From positions 682,001 to 746,000 of the forward strand of contig NZ_CP063356.1 of NCBI RefSeq assembly GCF_001866075.3: a stretch of DNA of 64,000 nucleotides. Reading direction: 5' to 3'. This document shows positions 11,213 through 19,121 of the stretch, piece after piece. Position numbers and translations under genes: made by a program. Source of the DNA: Anaerobacillus isosaccharinicus. Lineage in GTDB: Bacteria > Bacillota > Bacilli > Bacillales > Anaerobacillaceae. Positions within the stretch are counted from its first letter, which is position 1, and every line of letters starts with the position of its first letter. The notes under the pieces are model-generated. The model did not search any database and was not told the origin of the DNA. It worked only from the letters and a program-made list of their open reading frames with translations.

Positions 11213-12337
11213 ATGGAAATCCTTATTCAAAATGCGACGATTTATCCCATTACCTCATCAAAACTTGAAAAAGCATCTTTATTAATTAGAAACGGAAAAA
11301 TAGCAGCTATTGAAGAAAAGATTGAAGCAACTGCTGAAATGACTGTTATTGATGGAGAAAATAAGTTTCTTCTCCCTGGATTTATCGATGCACATACACA
11401 TTTAGGTTTATATGATGAAGGAACAGGTTGGGCTGGAAATGATGCTAACGAAACGATAGAAGCGCTTACCCCCCATATTCGAGCGATTGATGGTGTCTAT
11501 CCACTCGACATAGGCTTTAATGACGCAGTGAAGTTTGGAGTTACAACTGTTCATGTTATGCCTGGAAGTGCCAATGTCATAGGTGGCACAACTTCTGTGA
11601 TAAAAACTGTTGGTAAAAATGTTCAAAAGATGATTATTAAAGATATCGCTGGATTAAAACTTGCATTGGGGGAAAATCCCAAACGAGTTCATAGTACTTC
11701 TACTAAAAACAATGATATTACTCGAATGGGAATTATGGGCATGCTTCGTGAAGCTTTCTACCAAGCAAAACGAAATCCTAATGAAGATGACCTTCGAATG
11801 GCACCTATCATCTTAGCTTTAAAACGAGAGATTCCCGTCAGAATTCATGCCCACCGCGCAGATGACATTTTAGCTGCTGTCCGTTTTGCCAAGGAGTTCA
11901 ACTTAGATTTACGAATCGAGCACTGTACAGAAGGACATCTAATTGCGGAAGAGTTAACAGAATATCCGGTTCAAGTAAGCGTAGGACCTACATTAACGAG
12001 ACGTTCAAAGATTGAACTAAAAAATAAAACGTGGAAGACCTACAGCATCTTAGCAGATCATGGGATTAGTGTATCGATTACCACTGATCATCCTTACACG
12101 CCTATTCAGTATTTGAATATTTGTGCAGCAATCGCTGTTCGAGAAGGATTATCGGAGCAAAATGCTCTCGAGGGAATTACAATTAATCCTGCGAAAAACT
12201 TAGGAGTAGATGACCGCGTTGGCAGTTTGGAAATTGGAAAAGATGCTGATGTTGTTCTTTGGAATCACCATCCGTTCCATTACATGGCTAGTCCTGATCT
12301 GACAATCATAAATGGGGAAATAATTTACAAAAAATAA
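11213..12337 (+). CDS. Amidohydrolase, imidazolonepropionase-like
   Basis: 374 residues. This is a metal-dependent TIM-barrel amidohydrolase, with the metal-binding DAHTHLG near residue 60, HAHRADD near 213, IEHCTEG near 235 and TTDHPYTP near 290. The C-terminal VGSLEIGKDADVVLW, the return to the beta-sandwich domain, is typical. GGAG lies upstream of the ATG. The family hydrolyses cyclic amides, imidazolones or peptides; the actual substrate cannot be inferred. It is 62 bp from yfhF on the same strand. Confidence 0.87.
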   Translation: MEILIQNATIYPITSSKLEKASLLIRNGKIAAIEEKIEATAEMTVIDGENKFLLPGFIDAHTHLGLYDEGTGWAGNDANETIEALTPHIRAIDGVYPLDIGFNDAVKFGVTTVHVMPGSANVIGGTTSVIKTVGKNVQKMIIKDIAGLKLALGENPKRVHSTSTKNNDITRMGIMGMLREAFYQAKRNPNEDDLRMAPIILALKREIPVRIHAHRADDILAAVRFAKEFNLDLRIEHCTEGHLIAEELTEYPVQVSVGPTLTRRSKIELKNKTWKTYSILADHGISVSITTDHPYTPIQYLNICAAIAVREGLSEQNALEGITINPAKNLGVDDRVGSLEIGKDADVVLWNHHPFHYMASPDLTIINGEIIYKK

Positions 12338-12600
12338 ATATAAAAAAGGGTTCCATTTTCATCTCAAATCGATTATGATGATAAAGGATTTTGAAGTAAA
12401 CAAACAAAACCATGAGGTATAAGAAGGTTTTCAGTCTTTAAAGCATTAAAATCAAAGAAAATGAACTTATTTCATGGAATAATGGAAAAAATGAGAATTT
12501 TTATGTTTCCTTTATGATTTTTGTGGGTATAGATATCCAATATCATATGAAAGGTCTTGAGTGCCTGCTTAGTGCTCAGAGCTAAACATCATAATAAATG

Positions 12601-12629
12601 TTGAGAACTATAAAACAGTTGTTTTATAA
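12601..12629 (+). promoter_or_regulatory. Candidate sigma-A promoter overlapped by a palindrome
   Basis: TTGAGA (12601-12606), a 17-bp spacer and TTATAA (12624-12629) resemble a vegetative promoter. The spacer and -10 region are covered by an inverted repeat, TATAAAACA-GT-TGTTTTATA (12609-12628), which could be an operator. A start near 12636 would fall at the edge of the tRNA-like fold, so a further upstream promoter is also possible. Confidence 0.4.
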
Positions 12630-12630
12630 G

Positions 12631-12700
12631 AAATGGGAAGGCAATTGGTTGCGCCACCAGTATAACTGGTCCTAGTGGGTTCGATTCCCACCCCGAATTT
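12631..12700 (+). ncRNA. tRNA-like fold in the leader of the acetyltransferase gene
   Basis: The 70 nt fold as a cloverleaf on paper. Acceptor: AAAT (12631-12634) with ATTT (12697-12700) and GGG (12635-12637) with CCC (12692-12694), leaving GA bulged. D-arm: GGC/GCC (12640-12642, 12653-12655) around AATTGGTTGC, which has the canonical GG. Anticodon-like arm: ACCA/TGGT (12656-12659, 12667-12670) around GTATAAC, with T at position 33. T-arm: GTGGG-TTCGATT-CCCAC (12675-12691), fully canonical. The bulged acceptor, short D stem and short anticodon stem argue against a normal charged tRNA. It is more likely a pseudo-tRNA or a tRNA-mimicking regulatory domain. The fold was read by eye. Confidence 0.5.
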
Positions 12701-12769
12701 GATATGCAATTTCATTAAATTCGAGGGGTGGTGAGCTAAGGCTTATTTTTCTGCCCCTATGTGGAGGGG
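12688..12769 (+). promoter_or_regulatory. Mutually exclusive leader hairpins ending on the ribosome binding site
   Basis: Segment A (12688-12700, the 3' end of the tRNA-like fold) can pair over 13 bp with segment B (12717-12731), with a 2-nt bulge. B can instead pair AGGGG (12724-12728) with CCCCT (segment C, 12754-12758). C can pair with AGGGG (12765-12769), which is the ribosome binding site of the gene at 12776. Folding of the tRNA-like domain would free B to bind C and expose the site; A:B pairing would let C block it. The complementarity is seen; switching is inferred. Confidence 0.45.
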
Positions 12770-12775
12770 TAAAAA

Positions 12776-13327
12776 ATGATTAAAAAGCGCGATTTAGCAG
12801 ATTGCCACAAATTATATGAGTTAATGATTGATCCAGCTGTTTTCCCATTTGTTCGTCAGAAAGCAAATTCTTATGACGAGTTTCTATTTTTAACAAAACA
12901 AACGATTGAAGCAGAAGAAAGAGGAGAACTTATTTCAAGAACAATTCTTGATGAATGGGGTAATCCAATTGGTACAATTAATTTATTCGATATCAATCAA
13001 CAAGCAGGCTTTTTAGGAACATGGCTTGGGAAACCTTATCATGGAAAAGGGTATAACAATCTTGCAAAAGATGCTTTTTTCAATGAATTATTTTATGAAC
13101 TTTCAATTGATGCAGTATTCATGAGAATTCGTACTGAAAATATTAGGTCAAGAAAAGCTGCTGAAAAATTGCCATATGTATCTTTAGCAAATGAAACACG
13201 AAAAGATTTGTTTAATGAAATTAACAAACAAACAGTTATCTATGATTTATTTCAAATTGAAAAAGATCAATTTACACTTTACCAATATAGACAACAACCT
13301 GAAGCTTTCGAGCTTAAAGAAGCTTAA
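12776..13327 (+). CDS. GNAT-family N-acetyltransferase (RimJ/RimL-like)
   Basis: 183 residues. The GNAT fold is recognisable from the opening IKKRDLADCHKLYELMIDP, the beta-4/acetyl-CoA loop region GTWLGKPYHGKGYNNLAKDAFF, and the following RIRTENIRSRKAAEKL, where the family usually has NxxSxRAxEKxGF. The acceptor could be a protein N-terminus or a small amine; it is not determinable here. GGAGGGG lies seven bases before the ATG and is embedded in a hairpin (CCCCT/AGGGG). The unusual 400-bp leader with a tRNA-like domain suggests control at translation. A terminator follows, so it is a single-gene unit. Confidence 0.85.
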   Translation: MIKKRDLADCHKLYELMIDPAVFPFVRQKANSYDEFLFLTKQTIEAEERGELISRTILDEWGNPIGTINLFDINQQAGFLGTWLGKPYHGKGYNNLAKDAFFNELFYELSIDAVFMRIRTENIRSRKAAEKLPYVSLANETRKDLFNEINKQTVIYDLFQIEKDQFTLYQYRQQPEAFELKEA

Positions 13328-14285: not shown

Positions 14286-17200
14286 TTAATTATCATTTCC
14301 TAAAACTTCATACGGAAATACAATTTTGATACAAAAGCCTGTGCCCTTCTTTGATTGAATAAACAAAGAGCCGCGTAACTCCTCTACCCTTTCTTTCATT
14401 GCTGAAAGGCCCATCCCAAACTTTACATTTTCAGCACCTTTGCCATTATCCTCAAATATAAATGTAAGTCCGTCTTCACTAGTTTTTAAGAAACAATTAA
14501 ACTTAGTTGCTTCTCCATGGCGAATTCCATTAGTAATTCCCTCTTGTATAGCTCGATAAATAACATATTTTTGGTCAGGTGGTAATGTAATGTCGCTAAA
14601 GTCATGCTCAATTTCAATTTGTGTCTTATGATTTACCTCTTTAATAAACGTTCGTAATGAAGGAATTAGTTGGTTTGAATAATCACCATCACTAAGCGTT
14701 CGCAATGATGTTCGAATTTCATTTAACCCGGCTCGAACTTGGTGCTGGGACTGTTCTAAGTTTTGTATAGCTAAATGAACATCTTTTTTTGCTAAGCGCT
14801 TTCCAGCTTCAATTTGAACTAATATCGTTGTTAATGTGTGCCCAACTGTATCGTGAATTTCTCTGGCAATACGATTCCGTTCCGCGAGCTTTGCTTTTTC
14901 TGCTAATGCTTCAGCCATAGCTAGATGAGAGTTTTGTAGATGTTTTGTTCGTTCTTTCACCTTTTCTTCAAGGTTTGCATTTAGAATTTGCGATGTCTTG
15001 TATAAATTAGCATTTTCAATAGAGATGGCGAACTGTGTTGACAAAGTTTGAATAACCTCAATATAGTCAGCACTGAAACTACCGTCTAACACATAGTTCT
15101 CTAAGTAAACGATCCCAATAAATTTATGTTGGGTGATGATTGGTATACATAAGAGCGCTTTTGGTTTTGCCTCAAGGATATAAGGATCTCTTAAAAAATC
15201 TAATTGGTCCGCTTCCTTATCAAATAAAACGGGTTCTTGTGTTCTGTGAACATAATTAACAACTGCTTGAGAGATAGTCACATACCTATCTATTGGACAA
15301 GAATGGTAAAGTAACGTCTTAATTTCATGACCGACTAATCTACCCTCTGCCTCTACTACTAAAGTTTCTTCTTTTTTAAGGATGAGGACACAACGATTTG
15401 CACAAGCATATTCTAAAACAATTGACATGATTTTTTTTAATAGCTCTTCTAACACAATTTCACCAGAAATAACTTGTGATGCTTTAATAATGGCTGAAGT
15501 GTCTAACAGTTGATTGATTTGAATATTTCCTTCATCTGTGTATTTGAGTTGTTGGTTTTGTAAAAATTTATATTCTTTCTTTAATTGCGTGATTTTTGTT
15601 TGATAACCCATTTCATTGTACTTTTCATAAGCAGAAAGCAAATACATCTTTCCTGCTTCAGGTAACTCTAACTGAAAATAAAGTCGGGCAACACACTCAT
15701 TAGAAATGGCTTCATTTTGCAAAAACTCATTTGCTTTTGCACACTCAGCCGCCTGATTGTAATATCGAATAGCCTTATCTACTTGATTGTTAACTTTAGC
15801 AATCTCACCTTTAATAATAAAATATTTATCTTCGAAATTACTCGGGCAGTCTTTAACCCAACCCTTATACTTTTTCAAATTTCCCTTTAGCTGTTTAGTA
15901 TAAAAACGTTTTTCTTCTTTCGTAAAATGAGGTAGAGCATTCGTTATGAGTAAGGAATAGTAAAATGTATGCTCTGGAAGTGAAATTAACCCTAAAAATG
16001 ATCCAGTATACTTTTCTGCTTCTTTTGCAAACAAGACACCTTCTCGGTAGTTTCCAAGTAAGTAGTATATTTGTGCTTTACACAAATAATAATCAAAAAG
16101 TTTGCGGTCCCTCATTCCCGCTTCCTCTAATTCGGTTAAAAATTGCTCTTCATTAAAATTCCCATCAGAAAAAGAGAATATAGTATCCGTCTTACCTTCA
16201 AGTGCTAGAATATATTGTTTGTATGTTTTTATAAACTGCAAATAGTGTGTATCCTTAATCTCATTTTTCTGTTCGTCGTACTTTTTTATTACCTTTTTTA
16301 ACTTTGAAAGTGGAAATCCTCGTACATGGAAAGAAATAATGTAGTGAGCAATTGAAAATCCACCATATAATAAATCACCAGAAAGAAAACTATATTCAAT
16401 TGATTTCAAAAAATACTCTTCACTAGCTTTTATTGGTTGCTTCCAATGACTGATGAAAGCTGCGAAGAGAAAGTACGTAATATATTTATCTTTAATACTC
16501 CCTTCTTCTTCAGCAAGCTTTGTTGCAAAATTACCAATTTCAAACCCTTTTTTTCTACTAAAATAGGCTACTTCAATAATGGCATAGCCAGCAAAAACCC
16601 CGCTTGCATTAGAAGAGTTTCCATTTTTCAATGAAAAGTAACTACCCTTAATCGTCAATAACGCAAGCAAAGGAGGATTGATAACGTGGAGTGATGGCCC
16701 CATAAAAAGAAGAATATCATTTAGTAACTCTCTCGATTTGTTATGATATACAGGTTTTTGTAACAAACAATCATAACCATGTTTATCTAAATAAGAAGTG
16801 AGCTTTATCCTTTCTAGGAGTATTTGTAGTTTTCCAGGATGTAATTGTGCAGTAATACCATTTTCGTTAAGCATTTCTAATCCTAATCTGATTACGTCAT
16901 CGGCTCTGTCAACCTTCGTAAAAATCATTATCTTCAATAAAACTAGTTTTAACCGATGCTCTTTCTCTATTGTATGAACCATCGCTTCGTCGTACAATTC
17001 TTCTGCGAGTGAAAGTTTGTTTGTTAAGTACGCACATTCAAGACAACCTAGGTAAAGCTCAAATGTCAAATCGTACTGTCGTGACCAGCTTTCTTCTTCT
17101 AATAGTCTTAAACCATTTTGAAAAAATGTTAATGCCGAAATAAAAGCCGTCGTGGCAAGGGCTTTTTTTCCTGCCATCATATTTAATTTCGCAATCTCCA

Positions 17201-19121
17201 CCTTTTCTTCTTCATCAATTAAAAATTCAAAGCTCTCATTTAAATGACCGACAACTTCATACAAATGCTCTGATAAACACTGATTATCTGTATAATGTAT
17301 TAATAACAGTTTACCAATTTTGTAATGAGTTATATTTTTTTTCTCTTTATTCATCATACTGTATGCAGCCTGTTGAATTCGGTCATGGACAAACCTATAA
17401 CAATATTCATTTTCTTCGACAATTAAACCTAACTGTGAAATTTCGTTAAGGCAAAAGTGCATATCACTTATTTTATTTCTAATTATTTTAGACAAAATAG
17501 TCGGATCAAAAAAGCTTCCCATACAAGCCGCATATTGAATAACAAGTTGACTTTGTCCTTCCATTTGCTTCATTTTTTTTATTAAAAACTCAATCACATT
17601 TTCTGTGAATTCCAGGGCTTTTATTTCCTCTACTTCTAAAGTCCACGTACCATCCTTGAAATCATAGATGATTAGCTGTTTCTCAACTATTTCCCGAATC
17701 ATTTCTTCAAGAAAAAATGGATTACCATTTGTCTTTTGCCATAAATGTTTTGCCAAATAGTATAATTCATTTTTTTCATGTCCGATAAGGTCAAATAATA
17801 AGTCTTGGATATTAGCAATTGTTAGAGGTGATAAGGTAATTGTAGTAACTTTATGACCATTATCTAAAAAAGTATTTACCACAAAATGTTTATCTGTCGA
17901 AACGTTAAGATCCCGATAAGCACCGATAATTAAAAGCTTTTCGATTTTTTCTGCGATGATATGCTTCATTAGGCTAAGTGAAGCCTGGTCTGCCCAATGC
18001 AAATCATCTAAAAAGATCACTAATGGGTTACTTAATCTAGCTGCTACTGCAAGAAAACTACTAATAACTCCCTTAAATCGAGATTCCAACTCTACGGGTG
18101 GTGTTTCTTTAAGATCGATAGATTCACCAATAATTAATTTTATTTTCGGAATGAGCGCTGTTAAAACTGCCGCATTTTCTCCTATCGCTGGTAATAGTTC
18201 ATCTCTCCAGACTTTTATTTCACTTTCTTCTTTTGTTAAAACCGAAATAATTAGCTGCTCAAAAGCTTGAAAAAAGGTTGCATAAGGGATCTCATTTTTC
18301 ACTTGATCAAACTTTCCCGAAACAAAATGCCCTAAATTTTTCTTCACCTGTTTTTTTACTTCTTGAACTAATCTAGTCTTTCCAACTCCAGCAGAACCTG
18401 TAATAAAAACTACTCCATTTTTATTATCAACACTAACACGTTGCCACTGTTCCATTAACTTCCTATATTCTTGCTCTCGTCCATATAACTTTTTAGAGAA
18501 AATTAATCTAGGAGAAATATCTGCTTGGCCAAGCGGAAAATCGTCAATCTGTTTTTCGTTTAACCACTTTTTTTGACATTTGATTAAATCATTTTTCATA
18601 CCTGCCACAGTTTGGTAGCGTTCTTCTAAGTTTCTTTCGAGACATTTCATGACAATATTTGATAAGACAATGGGAATTTCTATGTTAAGTTCATGGGGAG
18701 GAATAATCTTTTGAGCTTTCTTTTGGTGAACCCATTCAGAGGTGCTACTAGCGTTTATTGGTAACTCTTTCGTTAATAATTCATATAGGATTACCCCGAC
18801 AGAATAAATATTTGTACGATAATCAACCTCAACGCTGTTATTTCTTCCTGTTAACTCAGGTGAAAGGTATGGAACTACATGAATGTCTGACAATTGACTC
18901 ATCGAAAAACTCTCATTAGCCACTAAAAAGCTATCATCAAGAAGTTCAAGCTCATACGTAACATTGTCAATCATGATTGAATGTGGACCTATAACTTTAA
19001 TGATCTTTTTTTGTTTATGTAAATAATAGACAGCTCTAGTTAATTTTAAAGCAATTAAAAAAAAGTCATCTATAGAAATAGGACTTTCTTTTAAGAAATC
19101 TATTAATTTTGTTCTCACCAT
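14286..19121 (-). CDS. Giant pseudokinase / AAA ATPase / GAF / histidine kinase sensor
   Basis: 1611 residues. Residues 1-190 are the C-lobe of a serine/threonine kinase fold without the N-lobe. The ATP-gripping loop and VAIK lysine are absent, the HRD and DFG positions are degenerate, and an in-frame TAA directly precedes the ATG. Next comes an AAA-type ATPase (GREQEY at 214; Walker A GSAGVGKT 242-249; Walker B LVIFLDDLHWAD about 367-378). A long helical-repeat region and a GAF domain (about 1190-1360) follow. Last is a NarL-type kinase with the phospho-acceptor His near 1423 (AREIHDTVGH) and ATPase motifs EDNGKGA and GMGLSAMKERVEEL. No membrane segment is seen, so it is cytosolic. It presumably phosphorylates the regulator encoded at 19197, which lies 75 bp upstream on the same strand. 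Confidence 0.9.
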   Translation of the reverse strand: MVRTKLIDFLKESPISIDDFFLIALKLTRAVYYLHKQKKIIKVIGPHSIMIDNVTYELELLDDSFLVANESFSMSQLSDIHVVPYLSPELTGRNNSVEVDYRTNIYSVGVILYELLTKELPINASSTSEWVHQKKAQKIIPPHELNIEIPIVLSNIVMKCLERNLEERYQTVAGMKNDLIKCQKKWLNEKQIDDFPLGQADISPRLIFSKKLYGREQEYRKLMEQWQRVSVDNKNGVVFITGSAGVGKTRLVQEVKKQVKKNLGHFVSGKFDQVKNEIPYATFFQAFEQLIISVLTKEESEIKVWRDELLPAIGENAAVLTALIPKIKLIIGESIDLKETPPVELESRFKGVISSFLAVAARLSNPLVIFLDDLHWADQASLSLMKHIIAEKIEKLLIIGAYRDLNVSTDKHFVVNTFLDNGHKVTTITLSPLTIANIQDLLFDLIGHEKNELYYLAKHLWQKTNGNPFFLEEMIREIVEKQLIIYDFKDGTWTLEVEEIKALEFTENVIEFLIKKMKQMEGQSQLVIQYAACMGSFFDPTILSKIIRNKISDMHFCLNEISQLGLIVEENEYCYRFVHDRIQQAAYSMMNKEKKNITHYKIGKLLLIHYTDNQCLSEHLYEVVGHLNESFEFLIDEEEKVEIAKLNMMAGKKALATTAFISALTFFQNGLRLLEEESWSRQYDLTFELYLGCLECAYLTNKLSLAEELYDEAMVHTIEKEHRLKLVLLKIMIFTKVDRADDVIRLGLEMLNENGITAQLHPGKLQILLERIKLTSYLDKHGYDCLLQKPVYHNKSRELLNDILLFMGPSLHVINPPLLALLTIKGSYFSLKNGNSSNASGVFAGYAIIEVAYFSRKKGFEIGNFATKLAEEEGSIKDKYITYFLFAAFISHWKQPIKASEEYFLKSIEYSFLSGDLLYGGFSIAHYIISFHVRGFPLSKLKKVIKKYDEQKNEIKDTHYLQFIKTYKQYILALEGKTDTIFSFSDGNFNEEQFLTELEEAGMRDRKLFDYYLCKAQIYYLLGNYREGVLFAKEAEKYTGSFLGLISLPEHTFYYSLLITNALPHFTKEEKRFYTKQLKGNLKKYKGWVKDCPSNFEDKYFIIKGEIAKVNNQVDKAIRYYNQAAECAKANEFLQNEAISNECVARLYFQLELPEAGKMYLLSAYEKYNEMGYQTKITQLKKEYKFLQNQQLKYTDEGNIQINQLLDTSAIIKASQVISGEIVLEELLKKIMSIVLEYACANRCVLILKKEETLVVEAEGRLVGHEIKTLLYHSCPIDRYVTISQAVVNYVHRTQEPVLFDKEADQLDFLRDPYILEAKPKALLCIPIITQHKFIGIVYLENYVLDGSFSADYIEVIQTLSTQFAISIENANLYKTSQILNANLEEKVKERTKHLQNSHLAMAEALAEKAKLAERNRIAREIHDTVGHTLTTILVQIEAGKRLAKKDVHLAIQNLEQSQHQVRAGLNEIRTSLRTLSDGDYSNQLIPSLRTFIKEVNHKTQIEIEHDFSDITLPPDQKYVIYRAIQEGITNGIRHGEATKFNCFLKTSEDGLTFIFEDNGKGAENVKFGMGLSAMKERVEELRGSLFIQSKKGTGFCIKIVFPYEVLGNDN

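Follow-up and report, generated by a model that had tools for sequence, protein, structure and literature searches.

A shortened tRNA-like cloverleaf ahead of a GNAT acetyltransferase gene in Bacillales: a candidate cis-acting RNA switch

Why should the leader of an acetyltransferase gene contain what looks like a shortened tRNA? The question is raised by a window, by which we mean the whole 64,000-nucleotide stretch of Anaerobacillus isosaccharinicus DNA analysed here (NZ_CP063356.1, positions 682,001 to 746,000 of the forward strand), where a first-pass annotation, made from the letters alone, described positions 12631 to 12700 as a tRNA mimic or pseudo-tRNA placed before a GNAT gene. The sequence features that it listed (the T arm, AATTGG, an abnormal acceptor and D stem, both in fact shortened, and the missing CCA) are as described. 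The element extends beyond 12700, up to the start codon at 12776. On our reading of the alignment, the parts of the cloverleaf appear to sit at the places expected from tRNA numbering: the linker at 8-9, the D arm, the 26-44 pair, a 4-base variable region, the T arm, and an acceptor at 5-7/66-68. This acceptor has 3 bp, GGG at 12635-12637 with CCC at 12692-12694, and no CCA follows. The features of the locus, all on the forward strand, are as follows.

12374..12379 (+), possible -10 box TATGAT of a leader promoter, weak, a resemblance seen by eye
12635-12694 (+), shortened tRNA-like cloverleaf, upstream of the GNAT gene at 12776-13327
12635..12637 (+), GGG, 5' strand of the acceptor-like stem, partner 12692-12694
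12638..12639 (+), AA linker, tRNA positions 8-9, invariant in the first alignment (28 sequences); AAA in a few members
12640..12655 (+), D arm with stem GGC/GCC and loop AATTGGTTGC, which has the GG of the tRNA elbow
12640-12642 and 12653-12655 (+), the D stem strands GGC and GCC; AATTGG of the D loop is at 12643-12648
12656..12670 (+), anticodon-like arm, 5-bp stem ACCAG/CTGGT, variable loop
12671..12674 (+), variable region CCTA, YCTA in most members, near-invariant
12675..12691 (+), T arm GTGGG-TTCGATT-CCCAC, the same as in a fetched tRNA-His; tRNA-Gly differs at the last base
12692..12694 (+), CCC, acceptor 3' strand and putative switching strand, pairing with 12635-12637 or with A1 (complementarity read from sequence, modelled)
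12695..12722 (+), second hairpin P4, GAATTTGAT...ATTAAATTC, with covariation
12723..12731 (+), A1, the proposed anti-anti-SD strand, GAGGGGTGG; A1:anti-SD within the best 5% of shuffles, the window's own leader included
12751..12758 (+), anti-SD CTGCCCCT, complementary to A1 and to the Shine-Dalgarno sequence (SD)
12763..12769 (+), SD GGAGGGG, which changes together with the anti-SD between clades
12776..13327 (+), GNAT acetyltransferase gene, 183 aa (PF13302, E 4.8e-14)

The possible promoter hexamer ATCGATTATGAT (12374..12379) resembles, by eye, motifs found at varying distances upstream of the element elsewhere, for example at L016, L022 and L125. A consensus promoter scan did not list this site, and promoter-like sites were no commoner than in shuffles.

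A real tRNA gene can be rejected. A tRNA scan with ARAGORN gave no call in the window, the 64-kb sequence has no Rfam match at gathering cut-offs, and the acceptor is 3 bp, not 7 bp, in 75 aligned sequences. When the 471 nt around the element (12330-12800) were searched against Rfam at E<=10, a search in which lower-scoring clan matches are hidden, the tRNA clan gave just a 17-nt T-arm match to tmRNA. T-box riboswitches are a tRNA-related form of control in Bacillota leaders, but a T-box binds a tRNA, whereas here the leader itself resembles one, and no T-box match was found in the window at gathering or in 12330-12800 at E<=10; no other Rfam family matches the element. An anticodon reading fails as well: across the 75 sequences the length of the anticodon-like loop lies anywhere between 2 and 14 nt, and its sequence differs among species, so the 'T33' assigned to it carries no meaning. 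An 86-nt stretch folds no better than its own shuffles (z -0.46; -0.75 was also obtained), and at minimum energy it is predicted to adopt a fold other than the cloverleaf. Since the folding energy of this short stretch is ordinary, one sequence alone would not have decided the question.

Conservation of the fold ahead of orthologous genes, which had been named together with a covariance search as the test of the mimic, is extensive. A BLAST search with a 191-nt query matched 78 of 101 relatives, or 77 once G074 was dropped, its 21-nt match lying outside the cloverleaf and being taken as chance. The GNAT protein is present in 79 of these 101 relatives (E<=1e-20); with the G074 match dropped, the element occurs in 77 of the 79 GNAT-bearing relatives vs 0 of the 22 GNAT-less ones. 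A covariance model, R1, built on 28 sequences and giving rough E-values, matches 304 of 397 genomes of the order (E<=1e-6). In the class it matches 34 of 398 genomes at >=79 bits, the next scores beginning only from 38 bits down, and in the phylum 6 of 398 (E<=1e-5), all of the same order or of class family f49. A pattern scan of named genomes returned at least 120 loci, and the genera named among the matches listed include Priestia, Anoxybacillus, Parageobacillus, Halobacillus, Oceanobacillus, Neobacillus, Cytobacillus, Jeotgalibacillus, Kurthia and others. The same GNAT, at 43-83% identity, lies downstream in 120 of 120 among these at least 120 named loci, its start being 74-197 nt downstream of the pattern start (120 loci among the matches listed). 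The description as a tRNA mimic before a GNAT gene is borne out by these counts, and sequence comparison lets chance be set aside as the source of the element.

The association is that of the element with the gene and not always the reverse. G034 and G076 have a GNAT that is 46-48% identical and no element, and three genomes of family f50 (G126, G173, G186) carry GNAT orthologs without it; the enzyme is therefore not dependent on the element. G077 has three copies of the element, two of them ahead of GNAT copies. Its third copy, L225:1144-1244 (-) (G077:C23), has no GNAT match on its own contig and may possibly be an orphan or act in trans.

The surroundings of the gene are also shared. An amidohydrolase gene (window 11213-12337) adjoins the GNAT locus upstream and is found directly upstream in 43 of the 92 named loci with enough DNA, which suggests that the locus is old and vertically inherited; matches to the window's recX and epimerase also occur among the named loci. 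We regard the GNAT locus as probably an old conserved gene block that is inherited vertically. A mobile element was considered and rejected: there is no phage match and a single plasmid record, a 690-kb Cytobacillus replicon with an amidohydrolase upstream and the GNAT downstream of the element. Further along the window, 14286-19121 (-) encodes a protein of 1611 aa that combines kinase domains of the Ser/Thr and histidine types with AAA and GAF domains.

Is the cloverleaf itself maintained? Covariation was scored on 75 loci that were not selected by pattern and were aligned to R1, the 28 model sequences among them; the duplicates L001, L032-L035 and L055 were left out together with the pattern-selected loci. 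Standard pairs fill 98.2% of 1788 pair cells, slid control structures being just 31-65% paired; of the 25 pairs, 14 have changed on both sides. For covariation the alignment scores 0.190 vs 0.065 in shuffles, with 0 of 500 shuffles as high. Two-sided changes are found at 1 pair of the D stem, 3 of the 5 pairs of the anticodon-like stem, 2 pairs of the T stem and 8 of the 9 pairs of P4. The D stem goes from G-C to A-U in L007 and has one mismatch in L243. In the acceptor, 2 of the 3 pairs are constant in 72 distinct sequences and the third differs just in L252 and L254, two sequences that are probably aligned out of register; being invariant, these pairs give covariation nothing to test. RNAalifold recovers the same cloverleaf and hairpin from an alignment that had been fitted to the structure. 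Outside the helices, the AA linker, AAWTGG and CTA form a near-invariant core, and the D-loop GG and T-loop residues are invariant in the 75 sequences. The alignment argues for a tRNA-like RNA in which the three arms (D, anticodon-like and T) and an invariant acceptor meet at a four-way junction. Comparison demonstrates this predicted cloverleaf, the P4 hairpin and their strict association with the GNAT gene.

Genuine tRNAs indicate where such a fold might come from. The weaker R1 matches in the class scan are real tRNA genes in 11 of 11 cases fetched from near the top of the list (by position 7 tRNA-Gly, 3 tRNA-His and 1 tRNA-Trp). Gly-CCC and Gly-UCC head these, and the best tRNA matches of R1, at 37.7 and 34.4 bits, are tRNA-Gly. 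The element shares with tRNA-Gly (UCC/CCC) the T-arm sequence GTGGGTTCGATTCCCA, and the D arm of tRNA-Gly has the length found in most members, 15 nt, with AATGGT in the loop. Unlike tRNA-Gly, the element has a 3-bp acceptor, no CCA and a variable loop without an anticodon, lies inside an mRNA leader and is not called by ARAGORN. Descent of the cloverleaf from tRNA-Gly is plausible, convergence being the alternative. Resemblance to tRNA-Gly could also be the mark of a functionless decayed tRNA gene or an integration scar, as the label 'pseudo-tRNA' had implied. We give this reading practically no weight, since covariation and gene association rule it out: the conserved fold carries compensatory changes, it is present in most sampled genomes of the order, it is strictly associated with one gene, and a switch region at the SD accompanies it.

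That switch region was studied in a set of leaders comprising 158 distinct ones out of 181 (L176 has no start call) and 19 divergent ones, 177 in all; L128, L251, L253 and L255 were dropped for having no second hairpin, which left 173. L122, also without a second hairpin and assigned a wrong A1, is still in the counts. In these five, L122 and the four dropped, P4 is absent or the switch region near the SD is of another kind. A1 reads GAGGGTGG in 116 of the 173 leaders and GAGGGGTGG in that of the window; the anti-SD is CTGCCCTC in many leaders and CTGCCCCT in the window's, and the SD is GGAGGG in many and GGAGGGG in the window's.

Pairing between these strands was compared, in 172 of the 173 leaders (L209 was skipped), with 100 shuffles each of the A1-to-SD region. 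For 118 of the 172 leaders, A1:anti-SD is among the best 5%, with a median rank of 2%. The anti-SD:SD pairing is weaker, reaching the best 5% in 43 of 172 leaders, and is weak in the f49 members L050, L058, L060, L240, L244 and L249. In 153 of the 172 leaders, against 117 expected, the two duplexes have 4 nt or more in common. A cruder test for overlapping duplexes found them in 127 of 173 leaders, with a high null of 1430 of 3460 for shuffled regions and with fixed windows that cut the anti-SD. A1 and the anti-SD also change jointly from clade to clade, as in GAGGACAG with CTGTCC and GTGGGGCAG with CTGCCCC. Their complementarity is thus demonstrated at the level of predicted pairing by comparison. 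By a pattern count, a U tract directly follows the SD in 27 of 173 leaders, and in these the anti-SD/SD hairpin may therefore also be a terminator.

On balance, we favor a leader that works as a cis-acting RNA switch in which the tRNA-like fold is the ON state. The sensor domain would be the shortened cloverleaf, which probably descends from tRNA-Gly or has come to resemble it by convergence. In the OFF state, CCC (66-68) would pair with the G-rich A1 downstream of P4, leaving the anti-SD free to pair with the SD. In the ON state, CCC would pair with GGG (5-7) and the D loop would dock on the T loop, so that A1 is released; the released A1 would then capture the anti-SD and the ribosome-binding site would open. 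In part of the order, the anti-SD/SD hairpin with its U tract may also terminate transcription. Something would have to stabilize the tRNA-like fold: the likeliest candidate is a small molecule bound in the junction, by analogy with the yjdF riboswitch, and the alternative is a factor that recognizes tRNA elbows. We infer the docking of the D loop on the T loop, as well as a ligand and what that ligand might be.

The ON/OFF logic was modeled by forcing folds. CCC (66-68) is complementary to GGG (5-7) or to the G-N-GG that starts A1 in most members. Of the 158 leaders, 115 fitted the strict pattern needed and were modeled, and 43 did not fit. Mean SD openness in the 115 is 0.48 with the cloverleaf forced vs 0.19 with the alternative forced. 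Forcing the cloverleaf opens the SD by more than 0.1 in 79 leaders and closes it by more than 0.1 in 0; the response is not above 0.1 in the other 36. In the control, with the A1-to-SD region shuffled, 55 of 230 open and 54 close, with a mean of -0.005. Opening in 79 of 115 leaders against a symmetric control indicates that the cloverleaf as ON state is built into most of the tested sequences. The models thus support the cloverleaf as ON for most tested leaders, that of the window excepted: its own leader barely responds (SD openness 0.418 vs 0.411), and among its genus-mates L003, L004 and L005 change little while L006 responds. An alternative pairing that would control the SD or a terminator, the general hallmark of riboswitches, is predicted across the leader set and not for the window's leader taken alone. 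The OFF fold is lower in secondary-structure energy in 115 of 115 leaders, by a median of 8.2 kcal/mol, which implies that the ON state would need tertiary contacts or a partner or ligand.

The flat response of the window's leader is what one would predict if the tRNA-like fold were a constitutive translation enhancer that aids ribosomes directly and involves no switch. Authentic tRNAs grafted into leaders have this effect: in PMC9142559, such grafts raise in vitro translation 2- to 6.3-fold. However, an enhancer needs none of the conserved and co-varying A1:anti-SD pairing, the change in SD exposure (79/115) or the U tract (27/173), and we consider it improbable. A still less probable reading is that the element is a processing signal, at which RNase P or RNase Z would cleave the mRNA and so affect its stability or release a small RNA. 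The T arm and elbow residues are kept, and these are residues that tRNA-processing enzymes recognize, but cleavage would leave the SD-coupled pairing unexplained. By the known rules, moreover, an acceptor of 3 bp that lacks CCA makes a poor substrate for RNase P or RNase Z.

What the switch might respond to may be approached through the enzyme. The GNAT has no defence-system match. Its AlphaFold model, made with an alignment of 58 orthologs (from 90 picked at less than about 80% identity among 153 complete ones), has a mean pLDDT of 92. By profile, the nearest solved sequence is MccE (3r95, E 7e-7), followed by RimJ/RimL-type and SpeG entries; the similarity to MccE, the acetyltransferase of an aminoacyl-nucleotide antibiotic, is distant and low over about 127 residues, and a Ser in an N..S..A stretch is common to both. 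The enzyme may act on aminoacyl groups, an activity that the first annotation had mentioned for the class. In a Foldseek search by structure, the top entries are SpeG polyamine acetyltransferases (14-16% identity). In a hand alignment, Ala occupies the site of the catalytic Tyr of SpeG in the GNAT. A polyamine sensor coupled to a SpeG-like enzyme was set aside because of this low identity and the nearer sequence match to MccE, and is kept solely as a possibility. According to PMC4964394, MccE acetylates the antibiotic microcin C and thereby detoxifies it, and RimL has MccE activity as well. The GNAT ends in Glu-Ala (window 13319-13324), a conserved tail found in at least 126 of the 153 orthologs.

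An enzyme nearest by profile to MccE, which acts on an aminoacyl-nucleotide antibiotic, might itself be the partner of the mimic. In this scheme of autoregulation, or of control by another protein, the mimic would be bound by the GNAT or by a protein with affinity for tRNA (RNase P, TruB/TrmFO or a ribosomal factor) that sets translation, and no small molecule would take part. The tie of the element to one gene in all 120 of those named loci would suit autoregulation, although GNAT relatives without the element exist. Similarly, real tRNAs have the same T loop, TTCGATT, but the near-invariant AA linker, AAWTGG and CTA seem more than a generic elbow binder needs. We judge protein control unlikely, though less so than the enhancer, and prefer a switch stabilized by a small molecule.

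A precedent for this preferred reading exists, and the initial remark that no element of this kind had been described was too strong. PMC9142559 describes the yjdF (azaaromatic) riboswitch, a leader RNA of tRNA-like form through which translation is regulated; it is related to tRNA-Lys and adopts its tRNA-like fold on binding activating drugs. As described there, the ligand-stabilized fold is the translation ON state and competes with an SD-pairing OFF state, the ribosome is bound, and the authors note acetyltransferases among the genes that yjdF riboswitches control. Going by the same source, yjdF (RF01764) and our element are alike in being four-way-junction tRNA-like leader RNAs of Bacillota with a D-loop/T-loop elbow, a putative one in our element, and yjdF likewise has a purine linker between P1 and P2, a dispensable anticodon-like arm and translation turned ON by competition between the fold and SD pairing. 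They differ in that the nearest tRNA of our element is tRNA-Gly, not tRNA-Lys, that its linker is only AA, that it precedes one GNAT gene throughout the 120 named loci, and that it has a separate P4 with A1 and anti-SD strands, whereas yjdF uses direct pairing between the T loop and the SD.

The family model separates the two. RF01764 was searched in 41 genomes at E<=10, under tightened filters through which weak matches may be missed, and none came up at or near the element; nor did the E<=10 search of 12330-12800 show one. Its 8 matches, in 7 of the 41 genomes, are all elsewhere, with none in G000. The element likely works like yjdF, and by the family model it is not yjdF. A yjdF riboswitch does occur at L256 (G022:C29:6186-6294), with 91.7 bits, above the cut-off, in a genome of the order without detected GNAT or element. 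Translational leader switches of tRNA-like form are thus already known through yjdF, and the element itself matches no Rfam family. Searches of the open-access literature gave no paper describing it.

It is tempting to speculate further, and we do so tentatively. The element may be a second, independent tRNA-like riboswitch class, derived from tRNA-Gly, in which a translation-related toxin or antibiotic would complete the fold, open the ribosome-binding site, maybe touch the ribosome, and induce the GNAT that inactivates the compound. If the switch works as proposed, tRNA has been recruited at least 2 times as a bacterial leader sensor, and the tRNA fold would be a switch module that recurs, not an isolated case. 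The element occurs widely, from Priestia to Parageobacillus among the named genera of the order, with a near-invariant core, a single associated gene and no Rfam family of its own. The GNAT is highly conserved too, and the role of this enzyme may become approachable through whatever triggers the element.
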